Part shown: positions 2,724 to 51,605 of the stretch, one piece after another
Position numbering within the stretch: the stretch's first letter is position 1
Layout of the letters: each line of letters starts with the position of its first letter
From: Thuidium tamariscinum
Lineage: Eukaryota > Streptophyta > Bryopsida > Hypnales > Thuidiaceae
Assembly: GCA_947034885.2 (NCBI GenBank)
Contig: OX344756.2
Span: 23,171,489-23,235,488, forward strand
Direction: 5' to 3'
DNA length: 64,000 nucleotides
Position numbers and translations under genes: made by a program
Notes under the pieces: generated by a model
The model's input: only the letters and a program-made list of their open reading frames with translations
What the model was told of the DNA's origin: nothing
Databases searched by the model: none

Positions 2724-2878
2724 GGGATTTGTTGCAATCGATAACAAGGAATCACGAAAACGTAGCCGAATAGAGAAAATAGTCAATATTCATCCAAAGG
2801 TTAATGCATGCAGCCAATGAAGGTTGCAAGACGAGAAGCCTCGACGGAGAATGAAGGTAACATGAGGGGGCGACTGCA

Positions 2879-3350: not shown

Positions 3351-3360
3351 GGTGTCGCCA

Positions 3361-3380
3361 GAGAAAACCCTGAGGTGCTC
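3361..3380. repeat. Right terminus of element 1 and candidate target duplication
   Basis: The terminus ends at 3372 and reads CAGGGTTTTCTC inwards. The following octamer AGGTGCTC is the putative duplicated target in the copia gene. Its partner lies outside the window, so this is unconfirmed. Confidence 0.5.
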
Positions 3381-4473: not shown

Positions 4474-4687
4474 GCACGAGCCGTGTATTTGAAGGTCACT
4501 TTTCCTTGTTGATCTTTGCTCTTATAACCTGGTTGGCACACAGCCATTGCACTAGAGTGAAGTCCAAGAAGAGTGTATGGGAGGAACACTTGCTGTGAAA
4601 GCAGTAAGTGTTATTTCCACATCACATCCAAACAGAATACTAACCTGTTTTGTTTGTGCAGTTTCAAGTGAAGAACCAGTGGGAACA

Positions 4688-7600: not shown

Positions 7601-7822
7601 GACAGCCCTGACAACTCACCAAGCGAAGTCGGTAGGGCAACGTCCAATCATGATGATGAATCCATGGGTCCTAGTATAGGTGAAGATGGTGAAGTTCCGG
7701 GAGATAGTGATTATAGAGGGACTCGTAGAGGTCCTCCACCTGCACCTCAAGACAATCAAGCAACCACGCGAGAGGCTGCTGCAAGGAGCATGGCTCTTAA
7801 TCGTACACGTGCAAGACGTTGA
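4688..7822 (+). pseudogene. hAT transposase (BED finger, DUF659, hAT C-terminal dimerisation domain), one in-frame TGA
   Basis: A single frame of about 1,044 codons is interrupted once, by TGA at 5969-5971. Residues about 1-50 form a BED-type zinc finger (WEPWYRL, then CKFC and a downstream His). DUF659 lies around residues 215-330, with CTDNAPNM and FQGCSAHALDLLL. The hAT dimerisation domain is near residues 580-640 (WWDLLG, then CERNWSMYSFVHSKSRNRL). These families cut and paste hAT elements. About 400 more residues follow, first acidic and Asn/Gly/Asp-rich, then basic and Arg/Pro-rich, which is a long tail for this family. ATG 4688 is preferred over the in-frame ATG at 4577, because an intron acceptor lies between them and the BED domain starts at 4688. 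The TGA could be a CGA mutated by C-to-T. Confidence 0.88.
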
Positions 7823-9450: not shown

Positions 9451-11009
9451 TCATCCCACGGCGTACGTTACCGTGCGTCGTTGTAGTGGGTCCTCTTTGC
9501 ACAATTCGCCCAATGTGGCTTGAAATGTACCAAACGCTGTATGGTCGGGAAGCATTTGCGTATTTTCGCGGTCTTTCTTCCATATCTTCTCCGCAAGCTT
9601 CCCAACAGCATATCCGTCTGTATGTATACTAACACACGGTGCCCCATCTGCACGAGTGGGGGATACCGAAGTGCCCGCCTCTCCAGGAACATACATCAAT
9701 TCAGGGGCCACCCACCAACGTTTCTGATGTGTAGCCCGCATTTGGCTTGCACATTGAAACTGGTACAAAGAATGGGTTTCTTCATTGATACGACTAGCCA
9801 TTCCCCAATCACATAGCCCAATCCACACTGTTCGCCCATCATCATTCGGAAAATGCAACATGATGTTTTCTGGCGTGATGTCGTTGTGGAGCACCGAAGA
9901 TTGTTGCACCGCATCCACGATGCAAATTAACGCCCATGCAAGCTCGGTGCGGTTTCTACGATAAGCCAAGAGTCTTTTGGCTTCTTGCATCATCTGTGGA
10001 GTTGCATGGTAGGCAAGCTCCCCGATCTCAGCATAATCTCGGTTTTTCTGGTCCAATGCGAACATGGCTCCCAATGTTCCTCCATTCCACCATTGAGAAT
10101 AACACTCCATGGTCATGTCATTTATAGCAAAAAATTTTATGACCCCTGGATGATTACATGGACAAACCAAAGCCTCGATGGACAACTTCTCCCGCGACTT
10201 CTTCAATTGATCCACATATAGGGCTGTCTTGCCCGCCAATTCCATCATGGGGGGAATGTGCCTTGAATTTTGGAGGCTCACTTTACGCACCCTCCCGTGC
10301 CCCCCTTGTTTGTTGTGGCCTAACAATGGAACCACCACCACTCCTCGTTCAAGAAATACCACTCCTCCCGCACCCGCTTGGCCTAGGGACAAGCTTTGGC
10401 TCTGCTGAAACCATGGGGCAGAGCGGATATTGCTGGAAGACAGCGCTCGCATTGCGTCATGCCACCAATACACCTTTTTGTGCAACAAATGCAATGCTTG
10501 TTGCTTAGGCGCTACATCTCGTTTGAAGCCCTTTACCGATGCGGCGACTGGGCGATGTTGAAAACACAAGTTTGCACTTGTTCGTCAAGCCAACGACGGA
10601 AGTGTTCCTTTGTGCGATCTTCAAGCCACTCATCCTTGCCCATTGTTGTCCAAAACATGTGGGTGAATTTTTTTTTAATTGTCTCCACCCCTTGCAATCC
10701 ACGCGAGACGTAGGTCGTATTCAATTGAGCAATCGTATATTGCTCCAAAAAATCCAATGCCACTTCCTGCACTTTCCTGGTCGCAGCCTTCCTTGGCTAG
10801 TCGTTTGTATTCGTAGCCTTGTGCCTCCGCCTACTCTTTTTTTTCTTGGCCCCCGAAGATTCTCCTCCAGCCGCACCACCTACCCCTTCTCCGGCCAATA
10901 CTGCCTCTGATACGCAGTCAATGGATTCTGGAGACTGCTCACCAACAGGATCTCCGATGCCTGAAAACCACTCATCAACCTTGCGCTTCGACGCACCTCG
11001 CCCGTCCAT
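9451..11009 (-). pseudogene. Protein-kinase-like gene, transposon cargo, one stop and one frameshift
   Basis: The start is ATG 11009. An N-terminal Ser/Gly- and Lys/Arg-rich segment ends at an in-frame TAG (10797-10799). Reading resumes in the same frame with a helical region (VALDFLEQY). A one-base shift near 10540-10565 moves it into the frame that carries the kinase-like domain to TGA at 9451. That domain shows VLHNDITPENIML (catalytic loop, HND in place of HRD, catalytic Asp and Asn kept) and LCDWGMA (DWG in place of DFG). It also has an APE-like APEL and a downstream TDGYAVG segment. The Asp and Asn suggest the parent was an active kinase. The glycine-rich loop is not clear. Substrate is unknown. 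The total length is one base short of a whole number of codons, fitting a single deletion. Confidence 0.75.
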
Positions 11010-16188: not shown

Positions 16189-18551
16189 ATGGCCTTAAAC
16201 CCTGGAGAGATGGTACTACATGTAGAGAACCCCCCCATGGCAGAGAACCAGGAGGTGGTAATTGCTGGAAATCACCCCCCAGTGGTAGAAAACCAGGAGA
16301 TGGTAACCCATGAAGGTGAACCCCCACACAGGAGGCGTCGTGGGAACAGGAGCACTGTAGACTGGGCGACTTTCAACACTGGAGAAGTTTTGGCCGGGCA
16401 CGGGTGGGAACAGGCGCTTGAGCCATGGACCCGCACCACATGTCAGAGATACGTGGACTAGGCCACATCAACCGCCATTTTCCACGGGAGAGAAATGAGA
16501 CGCAAGTGCGATCTGGCGTTGCATTGATCAAGTATTGCGTACACCCAACGTTCAAGAAGCGGTTGACCGAGGTGGCATTGGCACTTTGGGGGACCCTCTC
16601 GAACAAGGATGGGACCCTCGCATTGTGTCAAATGGCGTATGCAGAGGTTTTTTTGGGCAAGGACGTGGATTGGAACACGTATCCGGCAAAACAACGGGGC
16701 GGCCGTTTCCCTGCTAAAAGCCGTAGAATTCCACCAAATCCTGAAGTGCAATTGGAGGGCGAAGGACTGGCTGGGGCACAAGGGGACGAAGCGGTGGCCG
16801 CGGACCCCATGGAGGTCGACAATGCACCTCAAGGCGCTAACGAACAAAATCCGATGGCTCCCGAATTGGAGGCGCCCATTGCCGGTCCAAGCGAGCCCAT
16901 GCCACTCGCCATTCACCCAATTCCCCCGTCCATGACAATTAATGAAGTATTTGGAGCAAATGGGGAATTAGAGGCATTACGTGCATTGGTAATTAAGCTG
17001 CGTGAGGATGGTGCAGAAGCTGAGCGAAGGCACGAGATGGAGGTACAAGCCCACAACGCACGAGTGAAGGCTTTGGAGGAAACGAATGCTAAGTTACTAG
17101 CAAGTAACATTGACTTGCTTGAACGTGAACGTCGCCAAAGCACGGATGGCACTCCACCATTGGATGAGGTCGTGGAGCGGGCCACATATGGTCTAATTAA
17201 GCCAGCTGACCCGTTGACGGTGCGCCAGGTGCGGCCTCGTGGTATATTCCCAACACCACATTTTCGTGGTGAGAGTTCAAATGCGGCAACCCAATCAACA
17301 GATGCATTGGGCCAAGAGTTCATAAGCGTTGAGCGCGTGGCATACGATGCCCTTGTGGCACGAGCGGAGCGTGCAGAGGGCGAGTGCAATGAGGCCAAGG
17401 CCAACATGGAGACTGTATCAGCGGCTTTGGAGGGACTACAGGACGAGTTGGCATTTGTAAATGCCATGAAGGATAGATTGTTGCAGCAAACGTCAACTAC
17501 GAGGGAGCAAAAGTTGCTTGCCATGAGCAACATGAGATTGGCATGCACTTTGGCTATGAACGAGGTCGCACAATTGCAGCGTGAAGTCAGGAGAATAGCT
17601 GCACAATTTAGAGATGGTAGCCAACGTTATTTTGGCTTGACATCGTGGGCCCGACTGGAGGATATGTTTCCAGTTACATTGCCCCAAAATCGCGATAATG
17701 CAAGCATTGATTGGGACGGGCATCCGCATCTAGACTTCCAATTCAACACCGCGAGATATCAATACGGGCCCGTGGATAGAGAAGGCAATGCCCCCTTACT
17801 GTGGCCCATAGTTCCCGAGTTTGTGAAAGATGGAACGACGTGCACGATTTGCATGGAACCGTTTGGACCCGAGGGTGGATTTTGCCTTGGAACGTGTGGA
17901 CATATGTACCACCCCGGATGTCTCATTCCGCACATGGTCACAAGAAAGCGGTGCGCACAATGCAAGGCTCCTTTGCACCGGCGGTTGTACGTCCAATTTG
18001 GGTTGGAGGATTACATGCCCCCACACTTCGAGTTGAACGAAGAGAACTTGCCTGGCGATGAGAATAGAGGGAGTTGGGGTAATGACATGATATGGATGTG
18101 GAAGTGGGGCTATGACAGTAGACACCTCGCCGTGCGCAGCGTGCAAGACATTCCGTGGAACGATGATGCGGAGATTACGGAGGTGTGCAAGAAGCTGATT
18201 AGTGCGGGCGATCCAGGGTGGCGAGTATTTTTTGGCCAACTTGCTGGTGGCCATTGGGACTTGGACCGACAGGAGTTCGTGCGCCGACCACATCCAGAGA
18301 ATGTGGTTTTTGACTCTAGTGGAAATCCTATCGGAATACTCCAAGACATGGATCATGAGGCACAAATGAGGTTCATCGAAGACAGTACGTTCAATGAGGT
18401 GCAAATGTTGTCAACCATTTCTTCCTACTTGCACGATCGATATGATCGGACCGTAGTGGCTATGTTGAACAATTTGCAATCTAGAGAAGGATTGCAAGAT
18501 TTTTTGAGAAATAGTATAGGCAGAGGCATTGTAGAACCAGAACAAGGTTGA
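16189..18551 (+). pseudogene. Coiled-coil RING-H2 protein, transposon cargo, one frameshift
   Basis: The first 90 codons read from ATG 16189 to TAG at 16459, ending with the conserved EPWTRTTCQRYVD. Homology to the minus-strand relative (291-2723) continues immediately in the next frame (GHINRHFPRE, LIKYC) and stays open to TGA at 18551, giving about 787 codons in all. Total length is one base short of a multiple of three, so a single-base loss near 16459 explains the break. The middle third is coiled coil (repeated ALVARAERAEGE-like heptads). The RING-H2 finger is CTIC, then TCGHMYHPGC, then KRCAQC, about residue 470 counted from 16425. The C-terminal domain matches its relative. An E3 ligase role is inferred only. 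A shortened protein could start at the ATG at 16425 and would keep everything but the N-terminus. Confidence 0.8.
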
Positions 18552-20821: not shown

Positions 20822-21636
20822 ACACGTGCAATCTGGAATTCATTTATCAAAAGAAGTTCCCACTCAATCACAAGAACAATATGTACTTTATCCTCAAATT
20901 ATTGGCAGTTTGATGCATGCCATTGTGAACACCAGACTTGATTGTGCTTATACAATCAGTACTTTAGCACAATATTTAACAATTCCAGATTGAATCCCAT
21001 ATACAAACACTTAAAAGAACATTGCGATATATAAATGGCACTTTACCTTATGGAATATGCTACCAAAAATCATCCGATGGCACTGTTCTTCATAGATATT
21101 CTGATGCAGATTGGGTTGGCTGCAAAGAAACTCGCAGATCTACCTCTGGTTATTGCTACATCTTGGCTGGAGGTGTCATTTCATGGGGCAGCAAGAAACA
21201 AACGTCAGTGGCACTTTCCTCTACTGAATCCGAGTACATGGCCATGGCCAAAGCCACAACTGAGGCAATTTGGTTAAGGAAATTACTGAAAGAACTTGGC
21301 TTTCTACAACAAAAACCAACATTAATATACTCAGATTCACAAAGTGCTATTGCACTTACTCATAATCCAAAATTTCTCTCTAGATCAAAACATATTGACA
21401 CCCAATACCATTATACACGTGAACAAGTTCTTTTACAAGAAGTTCAACTACAATATATTCCAACAGCACAAATGACTGCTGATATATTTACAAAGTCATT
21501 ATCTAAAGATAAACATTATCAATGTATGAAGAATCTTGGCACGTGTCACCCACCTACTTACAACCCACAAGCCAATATTGTTTTTGTAACACCACCAGAT
21601 TACAACAATAACTTCAACTCCCTCCGGCCGCATTGA
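20822..21636 (+). pseudogene. Ty1-copia RT C-terminus and RNase H
   Basis: Continues the RT fragment at 3373-3904. It begins with HVQSGIHLSKE, then QIIGSLMHAIVNTRLDCAYTI. The frame breaks near 20993, where about two bases appear lost, before TLKRTLRYINGT. RNase H follows with the acidic residues in place: SDADWVG, SSTESEYMA, YSDSQSA and HIDTQYHYTRE. RNase H removes the RNA strand during reverse transcription. It ends at TGA 21636. Together with the TAA in the RT part, this copy is dead. Confidence 0.92.
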
Positions 21637-36097: not shown

Positions 36098-36107
36098 TAT
36101 TTCTATA

Positions 36108-36185
36108 CAACGACGCTAGCGTGCGAGCTTGGAGCGGTGAGCCTGTGAGCTGCGAGCGTGGAGCCTGTGAGCCTGTGAGCCTGGA
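36108..36185. repeat. Left terminal region of element 3
   Basis: The terminal CAACGACGCTAGCGTGCGAG is followed by seven or so GTGAGC(C/T)/GCGAGCGTGGAGC words in tandem, then poly-A/T. Further in, near 36280-36305, is CCTATGACCGTG / CCTATAACCGTGG. Confidence 0.7.
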
Positions 36186-36649
36186 AACCAAAAAAATTGA
36201 AAATTTTTTGAAATTTTTTTTTTTTCCAATTTTTTTGGTTGAAAAGTTGGTTTTTTAATGGAAAATAGTGAAAATATGACCTATGACCGTGTCACCTATA
36301 ACCGTGGTTTAGGTGAAATGTTATATTTTTGAGTTTAACTTTTATTCGCTAAGGGATGAGGCCTTTCAAGGTTTAGGGGAAAATTTTCAGCATGTAGTTT
36401 ATCCATTATCTACAAAACTAGCAAGGGATTTATAAGAAAAAATGTTGTATTCATGCATCTCAATTTAATTCAACAAATTTTTTTGATAAAACATTCTGTG
36501 ACACTTTGTGAATGCATTAATAGTTTTGAATACTTCTGTAATACGAGAGAATTCACTCCAAATGGCAATCATAATATATATTTATAAATGCAATTGAAGT
36601 ACATAAACATATCTAGCCATGCCTATTCTGGAATTGCAATAATTCCCGC

Positions 36650-39600
36650 TCAGAGTAGAAGTAGCTTCAACTCATTGAAGCTATAACTTGGTGCATGAAT
36701 GAATTTGTCTTCGTGGACATCCATCTTGCAAAAGTACCTATACAAATAGTACAAGTGCTTGCAATTCACGTACTGTTGACGACCACCAATAGCTGAAACA
36801 GCCATATTCACAAAATCTGGACATGTGCACGTTGGGAACATTCCTAGTGTAACTCGATATGCATTCCTGTTAGAATCTGACCCTGTCTCAAGTACCACAA
36901 TTGCACCAAGTCCAGGAAAAGGGAGTAATGTGACCTCCAAAATTTGTCCTCTGACATTCCCTGCACTTTCCCATTTATTCCGTTGCTCTGTAGTTGGTGC
37001 ATTTACCGTCCTTCGAATGGTTCGATTGTTCCTGACTGTAGGATACGTGTCTGGGTTCTTTGGTGAAGGTTCGTCATAGAAAACAGTGGTGAAAATCTTT
37101 GACATGCTGAACAATCGCCGTGGTGATAATGTTGGACGTACTTGGAGGTGGAATCCCGCATGCTGCAAGAGTAAAGTCTCTTCACGGTTGAGATTGGTTC
37201 CACTCAAAACAGGCCATACCTCCGGGACCTGTGGCCAATCAATTACCTACTTCCGCTTTGTACCTTTCACACATCGCTCAATGTCGTCCCAACAAAACCA
37301 GAAATCTGCCACAACCTCTCGCTTACTGCCATATTCCTCTTTTCGTCCACGATAGGTAGGAGCTGGAGTTCCCTTCTTTCCTCTCGCAATTTTTGACGTG
37401 CACTTTATGCTGGATCTCTGTTGTTGAGCTTGACATCTTGCGTTGGATTTGTGGCTAATCCTTGCTATATGCCACTTAGATATGTCGCAATCACTTTCAA
37501 ATGCAATCGTAACATGTCCTACAGTAGAATCTTCTAATTCTTTACCCTTATTTTGCAAAGAAGGTGAAGAAGTTGTTGTGGACCTTGTTCGAACACGGGG
37601 TTGAGAAAAGTTCACTTTGTCCGGTCTATGTGAATCTCCTGCATCGCCAATGGGCACATCCAACTTCCTCTTCATACTCCCAAATATTTCTTCTCCCTCC
37701 AAGTGCGGTACTCTAGTTCCAACACCTTCTGAACCAGGCAATTCATTCAAAGCATCTGCAATTTTTTTGGGATCCCCGCTCCTTCTAGCAGCTCTGAGCT
37801 TCAACTCACCCTTAGACGGCCCTGATCCTGATGCATGACCTCTCAAATAGGCACGATAGTTTGTCATTTGCATCCAAGCACGGATACTGTCATCACATGT
37901 TGCATCAAACAAGTTGTTCCCTCGCTTTCCAGACATTTGTAGCCACTTGTTATGCACCGTTTCAGATAGATTGCACGATGGTAAGTCCAACATCTCTTCA
38001 AGATTCAGCTTCTACAAATGAACAAAAATTCACCAAAATAGTTAGAAATTTATAGTCCAAAGACAACAAACTTCTAGATTGTAATATTAGGGTCACTATT
38101 GAATACACATTTCAATAGTAATTACGACTTCTAAGGACTTCTCATTGTAGAAAGATATATCCGTATTGAATTCCTAAAAATCAGACTAATTCAAAAAAAA
38201 TCTAGTCTACATAGACAAATATATTTGAATTGCATACCTACTGATGTTCATTTTTTGAGGTTAGGAATAAAATTGAGGGGGTTATGCTGATACTCGGATG
38301 TTAACCGTCGGATCCGAGGCATGTAGATTGAGTATTACCCGGACCCCCTTATTTTCCATATCTTGAAGTACAAAATTTTAAAAAAAATTTTAAAAAAAAC
38401 TCGAAAAGAAAATTACACTTCCACTTCAACAGAGATCAGATTTTACATTGAAGTGAACTTTGTATTAGAGAATGTAAATTCAAACTTCAAATTCATATAC
38501 AAATTGCAATTATTGATTAAACATACCATGTCCATGAAGCCTCCCCATTGCCGGTAACGAAAATGCCAAAAAGCTAGCCAATGGTCCAAGTGATGAAGTG
38601 CATCTTCATTGGCAGCTCCAGATGATAGCCACCATGACCGGATGGCTAGGTACCGTATCTCTGCTTGGTCCATATTCTTGGAGTCCTTGTACTGCTTGCA
38701 CAATGACATGTGTTGTTGATGGAATGCTTCTTTGATGTACTTCTGTGTATGCTTATGGAGAGAGGTACTCCAATGCAGCAAACATGTTCTTTCTCGATTC
38801 TCCATGGCAACATTGGCAGAACCGCTTCCGTACACAATGCGTACCGCATTCCAATTGGCCATGGCACTATCCGCCATAAATCCCTTGAAGTTTGGATTAG
38901 TCACCCCATGTGAATGCATTACCATATTCAAGCTTCTCCAGAACTGTACTTGAATCTCGGTGTCTTCGGATTGCATATCGCATATTGCAATGATCATCAC
39001 CTTTTTGTACTGAGTATCATACACGTGGCAAGCCATTGTGGTCCAGTCCTTCACGCGCTTCACGTGGTCAAACATCAACCAAGCATTCTGAAGATCACCT
39101 CCTTCTTGCATGCGCTTGACGAGGTCCACCCCACTCCCTGGGCCTTCAGTAAGCATCTTGAAGATGTATACCTTCTCCTTCCCTTGCCCAGGGAAGACAC
39201 TGTCGTGTATGAATTCGAACTTGGACTCTCTCTTCATAGTCAAAATGTTGTCGATCACTCCTCCTCGGTTGTTAGAACGGAAAGAAGAAATAACATTGCG
39301 AATACTTGGACTACTTAGGTATTGAAAGCGATCCATGACCTCCTCCATTTCTTCCTCCCTCAACATCTTTTTCTCGCCCTCTCCATTGTGAAACAAGTAG
39401 CTCGTTAAGAACTCTTTACTAGCAGAAAGAGCAATAGCAGAGTTCGTGGCCATGGGTGTCTTTTCCACTTGCTCTGCTATGAGTCCGCAAATTTTTTCCG
39501 CGGAATCCCTATACATCCCCTTAGCAACAAGGTGCTCGTGCTTTCCAAAGTGAATTGCAGCCCTACTAAGTTCTGGGTTATCAGCATATGCATAGTAAAT

Positions 39601-40686
39601 CCTAGTCTTGCATTCGCTAAGACAGGATGGTGAAGTTTTGCAGACTTTGCATACTAGAGTTGAATCTGCTGGTGGACACTCCCCCGGACTAAAAGGAAAC
39701 ACAGTATAGCCAGTCCACTCTGTTTCATTTTTCTTAGAAGCTCTCTTCAAATAATCACAATTTGGATTTTCACAACTGAGATGGCCAGCACAATACGACT
39801 TACGAAATTTCAAGTTGTCAGAGTTGTGGATGTTAGTTGTCATGAGCTTGCACCACGGATGTCCGTCGTACCGCTTGTCCATTCCCTCCAAGTTTCGGGC
39901 ACCTGTCGAGGAAGAAGATGAGCGACACGGGGGCAGTTCAAAGATGACATCTCCATCAAATACTGCTGGAAGGTATGGAACTTGAAGGTGCTTCAGAGTA
40001 TCCAGATTCATTGTCGACAGTTCGTTGCGAGACCGGCGCATTGTAGCGAGTCTCTTCAAACATTCCATAATGCTTTCTCTCCCTCCTACATACGGGTGTA
40101 CAAGAGGAAGTGGAAGTGACGAAGTTGAGGGACTTCTAGATGGAGCATCGGAAAATGATTCTACTCTTTCCATCTTGCACGATTCGAGGGGAACAAAAGC
40201 CTGAGGCTTTTTGGACTTGCAATGTACAGGCTCTCTTTCGGAATCGGAAGACAACTCTATGATAGTATCTAATCTCTCTACTTTCACCTTACGAAGTAGT
40301 GTACGCATCTCATTCATTGGTAAAGCATGTACAGGTGGGCTAAGTGCAACGGCATGTGGTGGTTTTGGCATATCTACAGTGGAATTGTCTGATTGGCGAC
40401 TGAGGATTTCAGTAGATGCACTCAGTGCAGACAATGGAAGCCCATATGCTCTGTAGTTTCCTGGAGGAAGGTACCAGCAACATGATCCATCTTCTATAGA
40501 CATGTCAATAGGAACAGACTGATAAACTTCACCTGATTCTGATATTTTTTCTTCCTCAACATATACAGAGCATTCTAGGAATTTAAATCGAACATGGAGA
40601 AGGTGGCTCGCTACTCTAGCACATCCACCATCTACTATCGGAAACACAATAGGAACCGCATACCCCTCTACTCGAATGGAAGCCAT
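36650..40686 (-). pseudogene. MULE transposase (WRKY-GCM1-like finger, DDE-like core, SWIM finger), one in-frame TAG
   Basis: Two exons: 40686-38527 (720 codons) and 38011-36650. They join in phase 0 across an intron with donor ATG/GTATGT and acceptor TTTGTAG. The start ATG 40686 opens MASIRVEGYAV. About residues 275-370 carry CKL, YCAGHLSCENPNCDYL and CKVCKTSPSC, as in the WRKY-GCM1 fingers of MULE transposases. The core has DWTTMACHVYD (near residue 547), GFMADSAMANW (near 600) and CLLHW (near 634). The SWIM finger is CTCPDF...CKHLYYLY near residue 1110. One TAG at 37247-37249 splits an otherwise open second exon, probably from CAG. This enzyme would move element 3. The intron holds one GGATCC palindrome (38275-38350). 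Confidence 0.83.
38275..38350. repeat. GGATCC palindrome P1
   Basis: Outer arms GAGGGGGTT and GGACCCCCTTA, centre GTCGGATCCGAG. This is the most worn of the eight copies. It lies in the transposase intron. Confidence 0.65.
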
Positions 40687-41444
40687 CGTGGAACCTTGCA
40701 AAGGGATTGAAGAAGAAAGAGAAGACAATGAAATCTACATAGCTAATCAGGTAAGAGGGAATACAACTACCACTTCATTAGAGCTTTACCATGTTCTCCC
40801 CTTCTCTGATATATATTCACTATTCCTGTATGAATGTCCGCCGAATTTTTTAAAATTTCAATAATGACCATGATCTCACTACAGCTCAAAGTAGAATACA
40901 TAATAAAATCAATTAGCCTAATAGGAAGACGTTCCTGCCTAGCATAGGCACTTTTGTACGATAAAGTATTCATTAGAGAAGGCTAGACACATCTGATTAA
41001 TTGCGTAGCAGTACGCCTAAAATGGCGTCTGGAATCCGATTATTGATTTGTATTTTTCAAATGTGATCGATTTCATAACGCCGGCAAAATACTGCAGGAA
41101 TTTTACTTCAATATCTGACAGGACAGAGCTCATAGAAGCTCACGCGGAAGAACTTTGAATTGCAAGGATGCGGCGATTTAAAGACCCTGACAATAAAAAG
41201 ACGGCCACCGCTGCATCTTTCAATTGGATTTGGGCGGCGCCCCTACAACCAGGTCCCTTCACACATGTGGCGGCATACTCCCACGCTCCTCCATTGAAGT
41301 CACCCTGATGTGACGAATTCACTGGAATTCTCTACTATGCCATAAGAGGGAGGCACCACCAAGCGTCTTCACAGTTCTTCTTCTACTTTTCTTTACAAGT
41401 TGCACGAGTGATTGATAGCTAGCCATATTTTTGCTTCTCACTTC

Positions 41445-41750
41445 ATGCTCGTAGAAGATAGGACACTTCCTCTTGTTAGTTTGCAACAACGGAGAACACG
41501 GAAGCGCCGTAGGTCTCTCTATTTCTCATCTTCTAAGGCTTTGAAGAGTGCTAGAATGAAGAAAGGAAGTAGGTTAGCACCGAAAACTACCCAACCCAGA
41601 GCCGGAGATCTTCGTCGAACTTTGCGTTTCGAAACAGGGAGTACTGCCGGGGAGGGTGATGCTCCGATTGACAACACAGAGGAAGTGGAGGAGACGGTTG
41701 TGGACAACACAAGTATTCAGCAAGAAACGAGGGCGCTAGACTCCGAAAAT
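41445..41750 (+). CDS. Possible first exon of an unrecognised basic protein
   Basis: ATG 41445 opens about 102 codons with a basic N-terminal half (RRTRKRRR, KSARMKKGSR) and an acidic second half (NTEEVEETVVDN). They end at a strong donor, GAAAAT/GTAAGA, at 41751. Without splicing the frame stops at 41792. I found no convincing second exon in 41.8-42.9 kb. It is divergent from the transposase gene, with about 760 bases between the two starts. Its basic-then-acidic layout loosely resembles the protein at 43049-45149. It may be a truncated gene. Confidence 0.4.
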
Positions 41751-41792
41751 GTAAGACTCTTTAGAAACTCCACTTCTTGTCTCCTCCCTTAG

Positions 41793-42745
41793 TTTTGCAC
41801 TACTGATGAAACGGCTACACAGATTCTGTAATGTTGAAGTACTCTAAGTTTTTATTTCAGTTCTAGACTTCTAGTGAATAGAATTCAATACGATGAAAAG
41901 GATCGTGATCCACATAGCCATCCCCTGTCCACGCAATGGGAAAGATGACCATCATTTGGTAGGCTAGGTATAGTCCAAGTTTAAAAGTAACATGATTGAG
42001 TGTCATTGATAGATGAGCTTCCAATATAGGAGAAACATGATACTGTTAATAGTAATCCCACTCTTCGTTCGTAATTCCATTTTCAAGAAGTACAGAATGA
42101 GAACAGTCAATGTGAGAGAAGAAACATTTGATATTACCGCTCTATCATATTTGAAGGCAAATACTAAATCTATGTCCATAGTTGCTCGAAACTATAGATG
42201 GAAACTTTTGAAATCATTCCAAAGTTTTGAGAATGCTATGAAGTACTTGACACCACACTCTTGTTTTCCAATTCTTTTGCATAGTTTAATTCTTTGGTAT
42301 TCAACACATCAATGGGCTTTCCTTTCAAATTAAGAAACAACCTTAAACTTAGAAACCCTAAACACTTTAAGCATCAAAACTACAAATTAAAATTATATGA
42401 TCCTTTTCAAAACTATTTGAGTGACATTGTTTTTCCGTACTAAATCTATGCTCTTTTAAAATAGGCCTCTCTAAATTGAAGAACATTCTATGCTTTGCTG
42501 GCTCTTTACTTTCTTCCTTGTCTTTCCACATATCATCTCCTAAATAAGAAAATCTCTAAAGTTAGAATCCTAATACAATAATAATATTTTCTTTCCAGCA
42601 TTACGTTGGAAATAAATAATAATCTCGTATAAGAATAAGATTCTCCTTTCCATTCTTTATACCTCAAAGTTCAGTCTATGTGTTCAAGGCCGTTAAATTA
42701 ATTTTAAAAAAAAGCAAGAGAAAATATCTTTTCACGAATAACATT
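41793..42745. other. AT-rich stretch inside element 3, no gene seen
   Basis: A 106-codon plus-strand frame at 42013-42333 has no recognisable feature and I do not call it. Confidence 0.5.
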
Positions 42746-42747
42746 GT

Positions 42748-42823
42748 GCCACGTGTCAGTCGACCGGGATCTGAGCTGGACTTGTCTACGCCAAAATCTC
42801 CGAATCAGAGACTGACACGTGGC
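42748..42823. promoter_or_regulatory. Inverted pair of G-boxes upstream of the 43.0-kb gene
   Basis: GCCACGTGTCAGTC (42748-42761) and its exact reverse complement GACTGACACGTGGC (42810-42823) each contain a CACGTG G-box, the plant bZIP/bHLH site. They lie about 230-300 bases upstream of the first plausible ATG at 43049. Confidence 0.5.
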
Positions 42824-43048
42824 GCCTTCAGCCACGCAAGCCAGGACCCGACGTGGCGGACCACACCGGAACGGCAGATGATCGCAGTGGAGTCTGATCC
42901 CGAATTCTGATTGACAATTCCCTTTTCTTTTTCCGGCGCCGATTCCACTTCTCCGCGCGCCTGCACCCCTGCACTTCGGCATGCAGATGAATCTGGACTT
43001 GCTTGTGTCTCTCCACCGAATCCACTTTTAAGACTGGCTGAGCTTGGA

Positions 43049-45149
43049 ATGCGGAGAAAGCCGCAAGTTATGGCGGCGCGGCTGTTTCCCTCGGTGCCTT
43101 CACTTCTCGATCTCACAATGTCCGTCTCTCTTTCTCCTACTTGCTATTTGAGGTTCTTATCTTCAATATTGTTGGACCAGCAGGAGACCATCATGAGGAG
43201 ATCTACACGGAGTCGCGCAAGGGATGGCGCTGGAGATCCGCCAACTCCACGAAACAAGATTCAAATGACAGAGCAGGTACACACTTCTTTTCTTTTCGTT
43301 TTTTGTTTCTCAGTCTCAGGCTCTGCGTTGTGGCCTTGTTAATGTTTACAGATTTAGATTCCCAACTTGGGATGCCCTCAACAAGGCATGTTGAACGAGG
43401 GTTTTGGGTACTGTGAAGTCCTGATTTCTTGAGATCAAGCTATCAACCGAATCTAGAAGTCTTGCATACGAAATCAGAGTTTTCAAGAAGTGAGGGGGTC
43501 TTCGTTAGTCTGCCTTCCTTTAGCTCGGATCCGAGGTAGTATAGATCAAGTACATGAGGATCCCCTGGTTTGCAAGCGTTCCGAGTTATTCTTTCTCGTG
43601 TGTGAGTGTCTGCTTGAGAACTGTCCAAGCGATTCTGGACTTTTGCTTCCTTGAAATCAAAATTTCCATTCATTGAGGGGGTCTTCGGCAGTCTGGCTTG
43701 TTGTAGCTCGGATCCGAGCTAGAACTGCTCAACCTTGGCAGGACCCCCATGTTTCGAAGTAGTTCGGAGTTTCTTCGAGATCAGTCCGAAAGCCTGCTCG
43801 AGATTCTTTCCACGCGATGCCTGCTCAAGATTCTTGCCTGCTCGAGATTCTTTCCAGATCCAACCGTGCTTCTCAAATTCTCCCGAATGCTCAAATGCGA
43901 GGGGGTCCAGACAAATGCAGTCTGACCTACCTCGGATCCGAGCTAGGTCCTACCGAATTCACCTGAACCCCCTTAGTTCAAGATTTAGGTTGTACTTGCT
44001 CCAGAATCTTTGTGTTAGATTCTTGCTTCCGAATTCCGCTATTGTGCAAATCAGTTTTTGTTTCCGAAATTTGTTTCCGAAATTTGTATCCGAAATTTGT
44101 TTTCGAAGTTGACGACAGGCTGCGGCGCCTCTTTCTCAGTCGGGCCAGAAAGTGGCGGGGTCCGGCTACATCCTTGCTGACTAGGCTCGGATCCGAGCCT
44201 AGTCAACAGAGACGTGGCCAGACCCCGTCACTTTCTGGCCCAACTGGAATTTTTTTGCTTGGTCAGCAAAGTGGGGGGTCCGGCCACGTCACGTCTGACT
44301 AGGCTCGGATCCGAGCCTAGTCAGCCATGACGTGGCCGGACCCCCCACTTTGCTGACCAAGCAAAAAAATTTGTCTTCGTGGAGTGATTTTTTTAAAGAA
44401 AAAGACAATTTTAGGTAGTTTTATGATAATTTTCTTTTAAAATCAAAAAATTGGTAAAATTTATAAAATTCTTATATCCTCTAGAGTTTTTTGTTTGATA
44501 AGACCTCAAAGTTTATATTTTAGGAGGGTTCAATTTCGCAATTCATTATTTGCCATTGCAAAACCTTTGTTTAGGGTTAAAAAAAAATTTCAATCAAAAT
44601 TCTTTGCATACTTCTCTCTTCTGGTAGTGGAAGCTAATATGAGGTATTATTCTGTATTTTTTTTTCAAACAGAGAGGTGATGGTGCAGGCTCATCTTCAC
44701 CTGTAGTAGAGCCCCCAAGAGGCTCTATTGTTCATGAAGCAGGACCCTCGCAGACTCCTACATCAAGGCGCCCAAGTAAGGAGGTCTCTAGTGATAAAGG
44801 GGAGGCAGGAGGACCAGACTTGGTAAGTTTTGGAGATGTCATGGATGCCGCTGAGCGTGCGGTAGATGCTTTCCAGAGCTCTGTGCTTAGTCGTGTCAGT
44901 GACCCAAATGCGGGAAGGCGAAGGCATGCCTTGAGGCTTGCTGAGATTGCTAGAAGAAAGGGATTTAGGTGTTTGTCTTCAGAGAGCTCAGAGACTGAGT
45001 ATAGCTCTGAGTCGCAGGTCTCCATCACTGTTGATGGTCCACCACTGCAAGAGACATGTACTTGTGCTTGCAATGGTCCTATAGGTCCACAGGTTCCAGT
45101 CTTCATTCACCTCAACTCAGATTCTGAGGAAGATGTAGAGATTGACTAG
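43049..45149 (+). CDS. Two-exon gene for an acidic-tailed protein of unknown function
   Basis: Exon 1 runs to 43276 (CAG/GTACAC) and exon 2 from 44673 (TTTTTCAAACAG/AGA) to TAG at 45149, joined in phase 0. The first in-frame ATG in the likely leader is 43049; 43118 is an alternative. The product is about 235 residues. It has a basic RRSTRSRARD segment, a Ser/Pro-rich stretch, a short helical region (VMDAAERAVDAFQSSVLSRV), and an acidic Ser-rich part ending SDSEEDVEID after a CTCAC cluster. I recognise no family. No stop interrupts it, unlike its neighbours. A strong internal donor (TTG/GTAAGT, 44821) could give a shorter spliced form. Its 1.4-kb intron holds five GGATCC palindromes. It lies 170 bases before the ParB-like gene. 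Confidence 0.5.
43492..43568. repeat. GGATCC palindrome P2
   Basis: Centre CTCGGATCCGAG at 43524-43535. The outer arms are GAGGGGGTC and GGATCCCC. Confidence 0.72.
43674..43750. repeat. GGATCC palindrome P3
   Basis: Centre AGCTCGGATCCGAGCT, with 12-bp core at 43707-43718. The outer arms are GAGGGGGTC and GGACCCCC. Confidence 0.75.
43899..43975. repeat. GGATCC palindrome P4
   Basis: Core CTCGGATCCGAG at 43931-43942. The outer arms are GAGGGGGTCC and GAACCCCCTTA. Confidence 0.72.
44141..44242. repeat. GGATCC palindrome P5
   Basis: Core CTCGGATCCGAG at 44186-44197 inside GACTAGGCTCGGATCCGAGC. The arms extend to GGGCCAGAAAGTG and CACTTTCTGGCCC. Confidence 0.82.
44248..44371. repeat. GGATCC palindrome P6, near-perfect 124 bp
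   Basis: Arms of about 62 bases run from AATTTTTTTGCTTGGTCAGC, through GGGGGGTCCGGCCACGTCA, to the core CTCGGATCCGAG (44304-44315) and back. Only a few bases fail to pair. This is the best-preserved copy. Confidence 0.88.
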
Positions 45150-47439
45150 GTTCTGTTCTTCCAAAAAGTTTTATATTCAAATGGCACTATAAAGCCTTAC
45201 ATATTTCAAAATTAATGTTTTACTTATGTACTATATCTTATGAAAGTTTATCTCTCAATTCAACTTGAATTTTTCTTTGCATTTTTGTGTTATAAAGGTA
45301 GGCTTGTGGTCATACATTTATGGGTGTTTTATTATTGCAAATGGAAGTGTCTCCAGTAGTTCTTTCCCAAGAAGAAACTATCATGGAAACCCAAAACATG
45401 GATGTTACAAGTCAACCCCCCATTGGTGGTGAAGCGAGGAGAGGAGTCACAAGTGAAGACGTGGTGGAGGAATTCATGGATGAAGATGACAAGGACCTGT
45501 TGGAGGATGACCTCCGCCAATATCACAAGGTAGACTCTGTGAATACCATTGCAGGCTTGAGGATGAAGCCTGATCATCTGTTTCGGCTTCAAATTCCCTT
45601 GTGCCGGATGGTAGCGATGCCCATGGTAAGACCTACTTTGTCTTGCGATCTTGAATTGCTTGAACACGAATTTGCAAAGGGCTACCTCGACGGGGCAGCA
45701 GTTTTCTACGTCACAACCACAAATGAAGCCGGAGAAAGCTCCAAATTCACAGAGGAGGAGATAGAGAAATGGGGGCCTTTATGGAGAGAGAAGAATGAGA
45801 TCTTTGAAGCCCACATCCAGTCTGTTCCCGAATTGAGTTTCTTGAAGAACTTGAAGTTCTTTGTGTGTGACGGGAATCACCGCCTGCTGTCATGGATGAA
45901 TCATATTTCCCGGCTGCACTCCAAGGACATAACTTGGCACTATGCAGTGGACTCAATTGTGTTGGACACAAAGGGCAAAATCGAGGTAGCTATGCATGTC
46001 ATGTATGACATTAACAAGTAAGTTGTTTACTTGAGTTTGGTCTTTGAAGTTTTGTTTTATGTTTTTAGAAAATTTTGAAACTATTTCATCTTTGCTTATA
46101 TAATATGAAATGCATATATTTATAAAGCCTTGTTGAATTTCAGGTCTACAGAGGGCTCACACGTGAAGACCAATTTGGTTCATACCCTTTATAAGGTTCA
46201 GAAGTATGGGCTTTTACCCATAGAGCGCTTCAACGAAATGTTGAGGCCATCTGAGCTGAAACGCTGTTCTGCACAGAAATTGAGGAAGACGTGGTATTCT
46301 ATGCCACTGGAGGTCTTCACATCCTTCGTTTTTCGGGTATGAAATTATTGTGAAAATTCTTCTTTTCAATACAATGTATTTTAGTATATTCAGTTTTGTT
46401 CTTAAAGCTTTTGTTTACATTGATTGGCCTTGGAAATGTGCAGCAAGAGATTTCTCAAGCCGCAGATGCTGCAGTACGAAAGTACAACGAGATCACGCCA
46501 GAGGAAAAGAAAACTGCGGAGGGACTTGCTCATGCTATGAGATCTGCAGCACATGAGAGGACTGGGAAACTCAATGTGAAGATGTCAAAATTGGCCGCCG
46601 TTGCTAATCCGGCTAATGAGCCCGACTTTTTGAAAGAGGTAACTACTTTGCATACTTCAAAAAATTAAGCAAATGGTTTATACCTTGAAAATTAGAAGTG
46701 TGAATCTCACATCATTTTTTTCAGGTTGAGAAACATTGGACTACAAATGAGGTTCCCGAGATGACTCTGGAGAAACTCCAAATAGTTGCAACGTGCAATA
46801 CAACGGCAGCTCACAAGATCAAATTCTTGCAGTGGTGGAACTCTTCTATTCCCTCACGTGATGCAAGGCGTTTCCCACCTAGGCCAATGTCTAAGCTACT
46901 ACTTGGACCATTTCTAAACCGTTGTGTTTGGTATGCTGGGATAAGTAACTTACTTGAAGTTTGTTTTCAAGTTTAACAATTTTTGCATTTGATATTTATA
47001 ATAATTTGAATTTTCTATTCATGAGGCATAGTACTTTGAATCATGTAAATTGTAATTCTTTTTTCTTTGATCCAGATTGAGGATGCAGTGGTGGATATTT
47101 TTGAGGGTGTTGTGAGGCATGACAACATACCTATAGATATGAACGTTCCACAGAAACCAGAGACTCTCCTTGACTATTTGGAAGGTTGGAGAACTAAGAT
47201 CTGGGATCAAGGATTTCTAGCTCATCTTCGTGGAGCTAACTACTTCAAGAAAAGCGATAACTTCAACACCTTTGAGGGATCAAAGCAGGCAGTAAGAAGG
47301 GTTCTTTTCCGGTGAGTCTCTAAAAATCATAGCTCATGTTTGACATTATTGTTATTGAATGTCCTATAAGTCAATCTTTGCATTGGGGCAAAAAAAAAAA
47401 ATTTCAAAAAAATCTTGAATTGAAGTAGGAAATGAAAAA

Positions 47440-47520
47440 GTAGGGGGGTCCTTGAGCATCCTCCTCGACATAGCTCGGATCCGAGCTATATTGAGGAGGA
47501 TGATGAGGGACCCCCCTAGT
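47440..47520. repeat. GGATCC palindrome P7
   Basis: Core at 47474-47485 in ATAGCTCGGATCCGAGCTAT. The arms are TAGGGGGGTCC and GGACCCCCCTA. It lies in intron 5 of the ParB/methyltransferase-like gene. Confidence 0.84.
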
Positions 47521-47678
47521 TCTTGCCCATTGCAGAACTTGAAGTCTCAAAGTATAATTTTTTTTCATGTAAAACTGCGATTTTATAGTGAATTATGAGG
47601 AATGAAAAGTCCATTCTTGCATGTGATCACCAAATTTTTTTTTTGTGGAAATCAAAAAATCATGTAGGATATCAAAAA

Positions 47679-47759
47679 CTAGGGGGGTCCTTCACCTACC
47701 TCCAAGACTTAGCTCGGATCCGAGCTACCTCAAGGACGTTGCTGAAGGACCCCTCTAGT
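47679..47759. repeat. GGATCC palindrome P8
   Basis: Core at 47713-47724 in TAGCTCGGATCCGAGCTA. The arms are CTAGGGGGGTCC and GGACCCCTCTAG. It lies in the same intron as P7, about 240 bases away, and is followed by the same TTCTTG...TTGCAGA flank. Confidence 0.84.
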
Positions 47760-50269
47760 TCTTGTCTCTTGCAGACTTTGAAGTTAAAATTTTCCATCTC
47801 AAATTGAGAATTTAGAAAAAATACTTTGTAGTTGGTATCCTTTCAAAGAGGTTGTCAAATCATTTGGTAGTTGAGATTGAATTTTATCATTTGTATTTAT
47901 TGAGTCCTCTTGGAACTGCAGGTACTTCAAATATGAGCTCGAAGGTAAAGAAGCAATCAAGACTGAGGACCTACCTACCTTCTTGAAGAATTTTCTGGAC
48001 CGCAACTCCAAAGACTGCATGTATACTCCGACTCAGCTCAAGACCTTCACTACCTCACATCTCAGTGGTGGTGGATGGTACATTGACTGCCCCATCTCCT
48101 ACACGCATCCGTCAGAGGTAGAGTTGCGGGCTTCTTTGGAAGGACAAGGCACCATCAACATGGACGTTGACGAGTTTCCAGGACTTAGTGAGAATGAGAG
48201 GAAGAGGGCTATTGCAAAGAGGGAGACCATGGACAGGAGGAAGGCAACACGGATTCAACTGGCTTTGGAGCACAAGAAGAAGGAGGAGGCGGAGTGTTTG
48301 GCCAAATTGGCGGAGAAGGAGAAGGAGAAGGAGGAGAAGGACAAGGAGAAGGAGAAAGGTAAAGGAAAGAAGAAGGAAGAAGGAAGTGGCATTCCAACGT
48401 CGTCTGCAGTGGATGAGGGCTCCCAGATGCAGGGTGCATCACAAGGTGGGTTGAAGAGGAAGGCCGTACTTCCAGACTTCTCGGAGGAGGTTATAACACA
48501 AGGTACACAAGTCATTGCTCTTGGAGATGACGATGATGTCACCTCAGAGGAATTGCTTCTTGATGTCTCAATTTCAGAGGTGGTGGACAACGAAGGAGTC
48601 CGGGGACCGAACCCTTATACAGAGGTCATGGATTTTCTACAAAAGGTAATATTCTTCTTTCTCTTAGCAATGGAGATTGTTATTTGATTAATAAAGCGCT
48701 TATTTTCTAAACTTGTTCTTGGAAATACTCATGTATTGAATAAATGTTCTTGCAGATGGTCGTAGGTAAGGCCAGGGTGTATGACGGGGTCGTCAATTGA
48801 CAGCCAGGATTTGATCTCATGATCTTTGACTGCCAGGAGAACCTCCCAGTGCCAGAGATAGGGGGGTCGAAGCACATTCCTTATTGAAACGCAGATAAGG
48901 ACTACTTTACAATTTTCCAGGCTTTCAACTTTGCACACAAACATTTGCAGGACGATGGGTGCCTTGTAGTGTTTCATTCTTGGGGCCAGGACTCCTTGGA
49001 AACCATTGCAGGACTTCTTCAGGAGTATCCAAACATCAAGAAGAAGAAGGACTGGATGGGCATGAATCGGATGCACCTTACATCGGCAGTTCACCCCGAC
49101 CAAACGGTAAGACTCTATCATTTCATTATAATAATTTTATATATTTGAATTTGTTGCTTTTTATTGTTTTCTAATCTCATGTGAGTTTTGATTATGCCTG
49201 CAGACATTGAAGTTTGGCATCACCCTTTTTGTCAAACATCTGGGAGCCAAAGGGAAATCGAACTTTGAATTCAGGCGCTCTCAGACCATGCTGAAGGCAA
49301 AGGTATGCCTTCGGCGTGATGACTTGCTCATGAACTACACCACGGAGGACACGATGTTGGTGAATGACATGGATCGAATGGCGTGGCGAGGAGCTCGAGA
49401 GAAGGACCCGCGCTTCATTCAATTCATCATTGAGGGCACCACGGATGAAGGGGACATTGTGATAGACTGCACCGCTTCTACAGGTGAATTCTTGTTCTAC
49501 AACTTTTGCACAATGAAATTATTTTTATACAAGAACATTATGTAGATGATGTAAATTATGGTTTTTGGCAGGTGCATCCATTATTGCTTGCCGTGCTACC
49601 GGGAGGCATATTGTAGCGTTGGAGGAAGATAAGAGGATTTTCCAGCATGTCCTCTTGCCAATGAAGAAGTCTGCTTCTACAGTGATCGCAGATCCAAGTG
49701 TGGAGGAGCCCACAGTTGTGTTATCACAAGACCAAGAGGCCATGGTGATAGCACCTCGAAAATTTGTTCGGCGCCCTAAACCTAGTAAGTAAGTTTTTCC
49801 TAAATTCAATTTTCTCAAGTTCTTGATATTTGTTATGTTTCATACATCTAACAATGTTTCCATTGAATTTATAGCAGCGAGGGAGTGATCGCGCAGGACC
49901 AAGTCAACAAGAGACGAAGACTCATTTTGAGCCCAGAGAAGCCATTCGATCTTCCAGTCTATGCAGAGCAGCTAGCATCAGCGTTTGCGGAGTTTGGCAC
50001 TTCCAAACCCAAATCCCGTAAACCTTCGTACGCTCTAAATGTCTTAGAATTCATAGATGGATCAGCATCGGAAGGTAGAGAGACTTCAGACTCTTCTAGT
50101 GATAGGGACTCTGCAACGGAGTCTACTGCATATTAGACTCATGAGATTGACGTATCTCATAAGTCAAATCAGTATGTTTGGATTTTCATTATGATTGGAT
50201 TTGTGTGCTTTATGGCTACATGTTGAGTGATTTTCATATCCTTCAAAGTTAGCATCAAAAAAATAATAT

Positions 50270-50835
50270 TCATATCCTTCAAAGTTAGCATCCAACAAAA
50301 TGGGGATTTAAATAAATATTAACCTTCTTTAAAGTCTCTATGCAATTAATGGGGAGTGAAATAGCTAATCACCTTGTACATTGTCTTCATAAAAAAAATG
50401 GGGAGTCAAATCCCTAGACCCTTAAACCCTGCATCTACATCCAAAAAAGGTGAACTCCAAGAAATATTCACCTCTTGGAATATCTTTAAAAAAAATGGGG
50501 AGTGAAATAAATATAAACCTCCTACATTGTCTTCATGGCAAAAAAATTGGGTGTGAAATATATATTTACCTCCTTCCATGCTTCCATCCCAAAAAATGGG
50601 CATTGAAATAGACATTCACCTCCTAGAAAATCTTCGTCAAAAAAAATGGGAAAAGAAAAGATATTCACCTTCTAGAATGTCTCTACCAAACGAGATGGGG
50701 ACTGAAATCAATATTGACTTCCTACAATGTCTCTGACCAAAAAAATGGGGAATGAAATAAATATTCACTTCTTATAAGGTCTCCATCTTCAATAATGGGT
50801 GAGTGAATACAATATTTCATGTTTCTCGAAGTACA
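50270..50835 (+). repeat. Degenerate tandem array of about 55-bp units near the right end of element 3
   Basis: About ten units of the form AAAAAAATGGGGAGTGAAAT, AATATTCACCTCCTA, (A)TGTCTTCAT. It begins about 130 bases after the stop of the methyltransferase-like gene. Confidence 0.72.
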
Positions 50836-51007
50836 GTATACTTCCAAGAAATAAATGGTGAAGAATGGAAACAAACGTATGATCCTAAGGCTACTCAATT
50901 TTTTTCATCCAAAATTTGGAAATACAAGCTATTTTGATGAACCCCAAATTTTTAGATAAGAATTTCTAACCCAAAACTCTAACAATCCAAAAACAGTATA
51001 GATTTTT

Positions 51008-51135
51008 CAAAACCACGGTCATAGGTAAATCCACGGTTACAGATCCTCATCCATTTTTTTGGAAAAAAAATCCACTTTTTTGGCAAAAAAAAGTTCCTGC
51101 TCACAGGCTCACAGGCTCACACGATAGCAACCCTG
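51008..51135. repeat. Right terminal region of element 3
   Basis: From inside out: CCACGGTCATAGG and CCACGGTTACAG, poly-A/T, GCTCACAGGCTCACAGGCTC, then ...GATAGCAACCCTG at 51135. These are the same words as at the left end, inverted and in the same order. Confidence 0.7.
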
Positions 51136-51605
51136 TATTTCTATACATGAAAAAAAATTGCAATAAAAGAACTTGCACTATAACTATGTGTAATTGCTTA
51201 AGTGATTGGAAATAGGTTGGTTACCTTATCCCTTTTTAGTTTATTTTTATTTTTATTTTTATTCTTTAGTTTGTCACAAAGTACCCCTTCCAGTTTGATT
51301 CAACCCCTAAATGACGAGCCGGTGGCCATGGAATTGAGGAATTTTGATACCGTGGGAATCATTGGTTCAAAAAAATCTAAAAACACACGTTGGAAGTCAA
51401 AGCACTGTAGAAGATCTTCCTTTTCCACCCCTACTTCCGAGGATGAATGATTGCAATTTTGTCCTACATAGAAAGATTCCTTGAAGTTCATCGACCAAAA
51501 AATGGCTTGGGCGTCGTTTAAGGGTTAACAATCTTTTCCACCATCTTAGAGCAGCCAGTCTCCATCAATGCACCGACAGACATGCTAGAAAAGCAAGATT
51601 TAACT

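Follow-up and report, generated by a model that had tools for sequence, protein, structure and literature searches.

A MULE-like transposon family of the moss Thuidium tamariscinum that links its transposase to a methyltransferase-like gene and carries an array of palindromic dyads

In ParB-parS partition systems, a ParB protein and a cluster of palindromic sites reside on one element, and ParB proteins are dimeric. Fusions of the ParB fold to N6_N4 methyltransferases are frequent in phages, as described in the relevant part of a survey of such proteins (PMC12704722). A ParB-methyltransferase gene is already known in a eukaryotic transposon, Sola1-1_Ec32 of Ectocarpus, whose description also cites green and red algal relatives; the account proposes that these algal genes bind and modify their own DNA, and in its relevant part it names no target (PMC12477816). 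Accessory genes are also described in Mutator-like elements (MULEs). In the VANDAL elements, the motifs of VANC21 lie in non-coding DNA, including the introns of VANC21 and VANB21, and the published analysis, in the part relevant here, describes them as evolving with the protein (PMC5735166). A survey of MULEs describes the accessory motifs FAR1, SET, and PMD and an ovarian-tumour-type domain, and its main text has no word starting with 'methyl' (PMC6446971). Here, we analyze a mobile element of 15,028 bp from the moss Thuidium tamariscinum (positions 36108-51135 of a stretch of 64,000 nucleotides, hereafter the window, i.e., C8:23171489-23235488 on contig OX344756.2), together with its relatives in the 363-Mb assembly of 19 contigs. 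The element carries a transposase, a putative gene B, a gene M with ParB-like and methyltransferase-like parts, and an array of palindromic dyads on which M may act.

The element is bounded on both sides by the 10-bp sequence TATTTCTATA, present as a target-site duplication at 36098-36107 on the left and 51136-51145 on the right. Immediately inside lie terminal inverted repeats (36108-36131, plus strand; 51112-51135, minus strand), which are imperfect, with 17 of the 24 outermost positions alike; the left one is followed by GAGCCTGTGAGCC repeats, and the other copies read there have the same end. Ten further copies (c02-c11) were fetched as 20-kb stretches and compared with the window element. 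Both ends were read in nine elements, namely the window copy, c02, c04, c06, c07, c08, c10, an element termed L029, and a diverged element, D; a single end was read in c03, c05, c09, and c11. All nine are flanked by a 10-bp direct repeat that is distinct for each element, a length that falls within the 8-11 bp target-site duplication of the MULE superfamily, and their ends are similar (CAACGACGC... and ...CAACCCTG, the latter being CAACGATGC in L029). The window element is inserted within an abundant repeat; therefore, empty sites are available in the same genome. A search with the joined flanks returned, among the best 40 of 3,215 candidates, the left flank of the window once and 39 places that cross the junction, each as one alignment of 85-89% identity that stops ~83 bases past it. 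Three empty sites were fetched, and all three span the junction with one copy of the target, which is unchanged in L047 and differs by one or two substitutions in each of the others. The original prediction, made from the letters of the window, had proposed one mobile unit with a 10-bp duplication; the empty sites give the same borders.

The family is a large, diversified set of 15-kb cut-and-paste MULE-like transposons. Four DNA probes, taken from an M exon, from the transposase, and from each of the ends, were run against the genome, and the best 40 of 190, 396, 397, and 170 candidates, respectively, were chained. Left end (L), transposase (T), M, and right end (R) are kept in one order and orientation in 29 of 50 chains; the others read LTM (3), TMR (2), LMR (2), LT (2), LTR (2), TR (1), MR (1), LM (1), M (2), T (1), L (1), and R (3), where a missing letter is no proof of absence because only the best 40 places per probe were listed. 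The LT, LTR, and TR chains are exceptions to the linkage, with no M among the best 40 matches listed, and one of the M-less LTR chains, at C2:47557280, does hold an M exon in a wider protein search. Of the 40 best-scored M exons, 34 have a listed transposase up to 60 kb upstream in the same orientation; for 31 of these the distance is at most 12 kb, as compared to 0.026 expected by chance within 12 kb. At the protein level, scores were obtained for 59 of 1,077 transposase candidates (77-100% identity) and for 150 of 630 candidates for the ParB-type exon (54-100% identity), many of the latter stop-free. Of the scored transposases, 27 have diverged to 85% identity or below; a listed M exon in the expected orientation lies no more than 15 kb from 23 of them, and the remaining four have none among the M places compared. 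Element D, a whole diverged member of the family (C1, 15.7 kb), has ends of this type and a 10-bp duplication; it carries a transposase with one stop, gene B, and an M that is 58.6% identical. A further exception to the linkage is formed by two duplicated copies that have both ends and M and no transposase. Thus, the transposase, gene B, and M share one mobile unit and stay together in diverged lineages. The chains and the diverged transposases uphold the predicted linkage between the transposase and a second gene. Both outcomes that the original prediction had named as refuting it, unlinked genes and empty sites with other borders, were looked for, and both checks came out in its favor.

The internally deleted element without a transposase is found as L029 (C8:23152900-23161400) and as L031/L032 (C8:20193400-20201900). 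The two copies share their flanks and the duplication AACCTTAATG, which identifies them as one insertion duplicated with its neighborhood.

An array of palindromic sites occupies the non-coding DNA of the element. The decamer TCGGATCCGA is found eight times in it, against 0.0065 expected under a first-order Markov model, and nowhere else in the window; all eight lie outside the 52% of the element that the gene models assign to coding stretches. One site is in the transposase intron (38308-38317), five belong to dyads of the form GGGGGTCC-n-CTCGGATCCGAG-n-GGACCCCC at 43470-44372 (decamers at 43525, 43708, 43932, 44187, and 44305), and two further dyads lie in M intron 5 (47475-47723; decamers at 47475 and 47714). 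The 20-kb stretches of c02-c11 hold 6-8 decamers each, kept though the middle 2-3 kb of c05-c08 and c11 are unalignable with the window, and 75,764 bases of flanking DNA hold none. D has five decamers, of which the transposase intron holds one and the DNA upstream of M the other four; its sites mostly have GTCGGATCCGAC-type cores, with GTCGGA half-cores, and GGTACC-type outer boxes. Two diverged M loci, L033 and L034, have a decamer in M intron 5 and likewise GTCGGA half-cores. Altogether, 84 dyad sites from 15 sources reduce to 29 non-redundant ones, and the 24 outside D follow a strict geometry, with the core CTCGGATCCGAG, the boxes GGGGGTCC and GGACCCCC 29-36 bases to either side, and AA/TT at 41-42. 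Genome-wide, CTCGGATCCGAG is counted 292 times and a reversed control 4 times, and 33 of the first 50 listed places are within 6 kb of a listed M, a zone that amounts to 0.28% of the DNA in question. Several dyads, in variants specific to the lineage, lie in the introns and intergenic DNA of every element that was examined over its full length.

Chance was considered as the source of the palindrome and rejected on the counts in the element, in the flanks, and against the reversed control. L029, whose M is broken, has three decamers left. Two dyads of the window sit in hairpins, at 44248-44371 (arms of 67 nt, 97% complementary) and 44137-44246 (arms of 60 nt, 87% complementary), both of which are candidates for hairpin RNA. 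Three pairs of CTCGGATCCGAG spaced 74 bp apart (C1:50394564/50394638, C2:9529217/9529291, and C2:38081878/38081952) lie away from listed M genes; they look like a different repeat in which the palindrome also occurs, perhaps a non-autonomous derivative.

Gene M (45341-50136, plus strand, opposite to the transposase) has 10 exons, at 45341-46017, 46144-46336, 46444-46638, 46725-46940, 47076-47311, 47922-48645, 48756-49106, 49204-49483, 49572-49788, and 49875-50136. Its product, of ~1,110 amino acids, is built of a ParB-like N-terminus, a charged middle, and a methyltransferase-like C-terminus. In the window, M is interrupted by in-frame TGA codons at 48798 and 48885 and has lost the splice donor after exon 4. 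M could be read throughout in seven of the ten other copies: c02, c03, and c11 have no stop, and c03 alone of these also keeps the start codon and all splice sites, giving an open frame of 1,116 codons; M is broken in c04, c06, c07, and c10. Among seven diverged M loci, the frame is open in one, L036, where it spans 1,104 codons; stops interrupt it in L034, L035, L037, L038, and L039, and no assembly was obtained for L033.

Both M and the transposase are under purifying selection. The ratio of non-synonymous to synonymous substitution rates (dN/dS) of M between diverged loci is 0.101 (c03-L034), 0.113 (c03-L036), 0.119 (L036-L035), and 0.131 (L036-L037), rising to 0.311 in a fifth, closer pair (L037-L038) and ranging from 0.20 to 0.55 among close copies, some of them dead. 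The methyltransferase part alone gives 0.09-0.25 in five diverged-locus comparisons, and the transposase compared with D gives 0.083 for exon 1 and 0.076 for exon 2. These values are rough, since the distant pairs have a high or saturated dS and stops occur in some of the copies.

The C-terminal part of M has the SAM-binding motif I and the domain homology of a beta-class amino-methyltransferase. PF01555 (N6_N4_Mtase) matches it in all six aligned members (best E 3.8e-6), with the first aligned member at E 5.5e-5, under the curated cut-off; at E 10, Pfam lists four families for M, PF01555 and three weak ones. By hhalign, the motif I region matches phage methyltransferases with 96.9% probability over 60 columns, and the best PDB matches of M are adenine-specific DNA methyltransferases (E 3.5e-4). 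A genome-wide search with PF01555 at E 0.001 returned nothing, which places the M family close to the detection limit. Motif I (DCTASTG) is interrupted by an intron (49465-49573), and at the position of motif IV (48828-48839) M reads DCQE in place of DPPY. The PDB alignment likewise sets DPPY opposite DCPE. By locus, motif IV is DCQE in c03, ECQE in L034, DCPE in L035-L038, DCTE in L039, and DCQK in L033, so that a canonical catalytic motif, (D/N/S)PP(Y/F/W), was found upstream of motif I in none of the six aligned members nor in L033 and L039. The forms named in the part of the bdelloid N4CMT study that treats this motif are SPPY, DPPY, NPPY, DPPY/F, and DPPW, and changing SPPY to APPA, i.e., its Ser and Tyr to Ala, abolished activity of that enzyme (PMC8885841). 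Methylation by M is doubtful because of this replacement of DPPY. The prediction of a methyltransferase-type partner gene is borne out by the domain match; that the partner acts as a methyltransferase is doubtful.

The N-terminal part has a DGNHR sequence in M exon 1 (45869-45883, plus strand) that corresponds to the phosphate-binding GxxR box of ParB/Srx-type (sulfiredoxin-type) proteins. It reads DGNHR in five of the six aligned members and DRNHR in one, and a motif of this kind is by itself weak evidence; an IPL...R box nearby also resembles ParB/Srx boxes. PF02195, the ParB N-terminal domain, matches nothing in the genome at E 0.001 and none of the six aligned members at E 10. DUF1015, a family that we take to be related to ParB/Srx, matches one member of the six, weakly (E 0.003). 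A PDB profile search with the ParB-type N-terminal part gave no credible match, and the combined searches for ParB by Pfam, NCBIfam, PHROGs, PDB profile, and phage tblastn gave no support beyond the DUF1015 match; no relatives of the ParB exon were confirmed in viral contigs. A single-sequence AlphaFold model of the ParB exon alone has a pLDDT (predicted local distance difference test score) of 42, which is unusable. The ParB label is thus plausible and not proven, and as first given it finds no support in PF02195.

The reading that we favor, at a probability of about 0.5, is that M and the dyads form a trans-factor/cis-site system that would work like VANC of the VANDAL elements and would be assembled from ParB/methyltransferase-like parts. 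It is suggested by the conservation of M with the transposon and by dyads that are conserved amid turnover and differ by lineage. The analogy to VANDAL had been drawn in the original prediction, and it is the best one at hand; a family-specific motif array, as known for VANC, lies in the non-coding DNA of the element. The symmetry of the dyad suits a dimeric binder; M would bind the dyads as a dimer, concentrate on the element's own DNA, act on the chromatin there in a way that keeps the element's genes expressed, and so counter host silencing, as VANC does for VANDAL elements. Given the replaced catalytic motif, the methyltransferase domain would probably serve binding or displacement more than catalysis, and the loss of a canonical motif IV favors shielding or displacement over modification.

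Several observations weigh against a VANC-like system. The ParB fold is unconfirmed, with no PF02195 in the genome, no PDB match, and a useless AlphaFold model. A fully open M frame is present in only one of the seven diverged loci (L036), and a decamer is found within the fetched M stretch in only two of them (L033 and L034), the stretches from L035, L036, L037, L038, and L039 having no full decamer. Among the first 50 listed places of CTCGGATCCGAG, 17 are away from any listed M, and the three pairs with 74-bp spacing resemble a different repeat. Finally, the spacer arms of a dyad pair above chance, at 0.625 within a site and 0.351 between sites (permutation p 2e-4), which a protein-binding site alone would not need; therefore, either the sites originate as long palindromes or hairpin formation also contributes to their retention.

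A tentative reading, to which we give distinctly less weight, is a partition-like epigenetic system, in which a ParB-type clamp would load at lineage-specific dyads, a methyltransferase domain that has lost its catalytic motif would have turned into a reader of bases or sites around GGATCC, and each lineage would shield its own copies only. If true, this would be a second, independently evolved answer to the problem that VANC solves.

It is unlikely that M is an active amino-methyltransferase that writes N4-methylcytosine or N6-methyladenine on its own DNA, e.g., at the GATC of the dyad core, as a self mark or to exclude host 5-methylcytosine, a role along the lines of the original prediction. 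The PF01555 matches in all six members, the motif I alignment to phage methyltransferases, the adenine-specific enzymes among the PDB matches, and the purifying selection on the domain are all consistent with such an enzyme, and a role of this kind was suggested for the Sola1-1_Ec32 relative in the corresponding part of its description (PMC12477816). However, the motif IV variants depart from (D/N/S)PP(Y/F/W) at every locus read, and it is the Ser and Tyr of this motif whose loss killed the bdelloid enzyme. Equally doubtful is that M and gene B are transposition accessory factors without a role in silencing, M bridging or clustering the ends and internal sites or coupling transposition to replication. 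M is under selection and is found with the transposase in most of the examined chains and diverged loci, and some other MULEs have second genes whose function is DNA-binding or unknown in the part of the survey that covers them (PMC6446971), yet the dyads are found in introns and intergenic DNA rather than at the ends, and the transposase-less element retains M and dyads, although one insertion seen twice says little. We consider it improbable that the dyads are RNA or DNA hairpins, i.e., small-RNA precursors or intron structures independent of M: the long inverted arms of two window sites and the better pairing of arms within than between sites speak for it, but the sequence itself is fixed at the core and at boxes 29-36 bases off, and some spacers pair poorly (down to 0.23).

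The transposase is encoded on the minus strand by exon 1 (38528-40686, start codon at 40686) and exon 2 (36650-38011), which has a SWIM-like zinc-finger motif and, in the window copy, an in-frame stop at 37249-37247. The stretch at this position is open in seven of the eight other copies showing it and in D. A stop between two transposase stretches was considered as a general feature of the family and rejected, as it is found only in the window and c09 among nine sequences; the transposase stretches are stop-free in some copies, e.g., c02 and c07. PF10551, the MULE transposase domain, has no match to the transposase open reading frames (Pfam, E 1), and its 33 places in the genome include none at the element copies located here. 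The SWIM zinc finger PF04434, a domain often present in MULEs, matches at E 0.021, under the curated cut-off, and the motif is kept in D. We therefore call the family MULE-like, on the basis of the 10-bp duplication and motifs seen by eye; the MULE label first given to it agrees with the duplication and finds no support in PF10551.

Between the transposase and M lie coding blocks that may represent a third gene or two small ones, which we refer to as gene B. On the plus strand, they comprise a conserved block, or separate small gene, at 41445-41645 and a second conserved block at 43169-43228, both with tblastx matches to D, and a last exon at 44673-45149, which is present in all ten fetched copies and stop-free in nine. 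No Pfam family matches gene B at E 1. Near the right end, a sub-terminal tandem repeat of ~50 bp (50294-50817; AAAAAATGGGGAGTGAAAT...) aligns to the equivalent stretch in other copies and may be a second cis-acting array. The window copy itself, broken in both the transposase and M, is dead. This state, the coding region between the two genes, and the palindrome array were absent from the original prediction.

Elsewhere in the window, long open frames at 4556-7822 resemble, by eye, a hAT-type transposase and presumably belong to an independent mobile element, and open frames at 3168-3818 and 20980-21636 are, we assume from inspection by eye, like copia-type reverse transcriptase and RNase H. 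Long open frames at 16422-18551 and 291-2789 (minus strand) have a similar RING-like cysteine pattern by eye and may belong to a further gene family, repeated or captured. The frame at 9451-10584 (minus strand) looks, also by eye, kinase-like.

How, then, does this family relate to the systems described at the outset? The phage fusions have the same pair of domains, are often on mobile elements, and keep the GxxR box, according to the part of the survey that describes them (PMC12704722); M is far more diverged, with no PF02195 and an altered motif IV, and it is an intron-rich gene in a eukaryotic transposon. As in ParB-parS systems, a ParB-like protein and a palindromic site cluster share one element, the binding of M to the dyads being putative; no ParA gene was noticed in the element, and no search aimed at ParA was made.

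Sola1-1_Ec32 is, as described, a giant DNA transposon with a gene for ParB-like and amino-methyltransferase parts. The product has 1,104 amino acids, compared with ~1,110 for M, and in both elements the gene and the transposase are on opposite strands. Sola1-1_Ec32 differs in belonging to the Sola superfamily, whereas the moss element has 10-bp duplications and a SWIM-like transposase, a comparison made by description; the relevant part of that description mentions neither a cis-site array nor a change in motif IV (PMC12477816). For the algal genes, the proposed target DNA was left unnamed; in the moss, the sequence itself offers a likely target, namely the long and conserved dyad, whose boxes differ between lineages, and the idea thereby becomes directly testable by binding assays. 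Our literature search, which did not extend to the works cited on green and red algae, listed no MULE that carries a ParB-methyltransferase gene and no palindrome array of this kind. As far as this search shows, what is new is above all the cis-dyad array, and besides it the carrier of MULE-like type, an altered motif IV that is under selection, and the third coding region. If the altered motif IV is inactive, a transposon would have turned a bacterial DNA-modifying enzyme into a DNA-recognition device.

The closest likeness in organization is to VANDAL elements and VANC, which are of MULE type and, in the parts of the literature that describe them, combine accessory genes with short non-coding and intronic motifs that vary by family together with the accessory protein (PMC5735166, PMC13317346, PMC6446971). 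VANC motifs are short and in one orientation, as far as these accounts describe them, whereas the sites here are long dyads, and M is built of ParB/methyltransferase-like parts. If M counters silencing as proposed, VANC-like systems would have arisen more than once, from unrelated parts.

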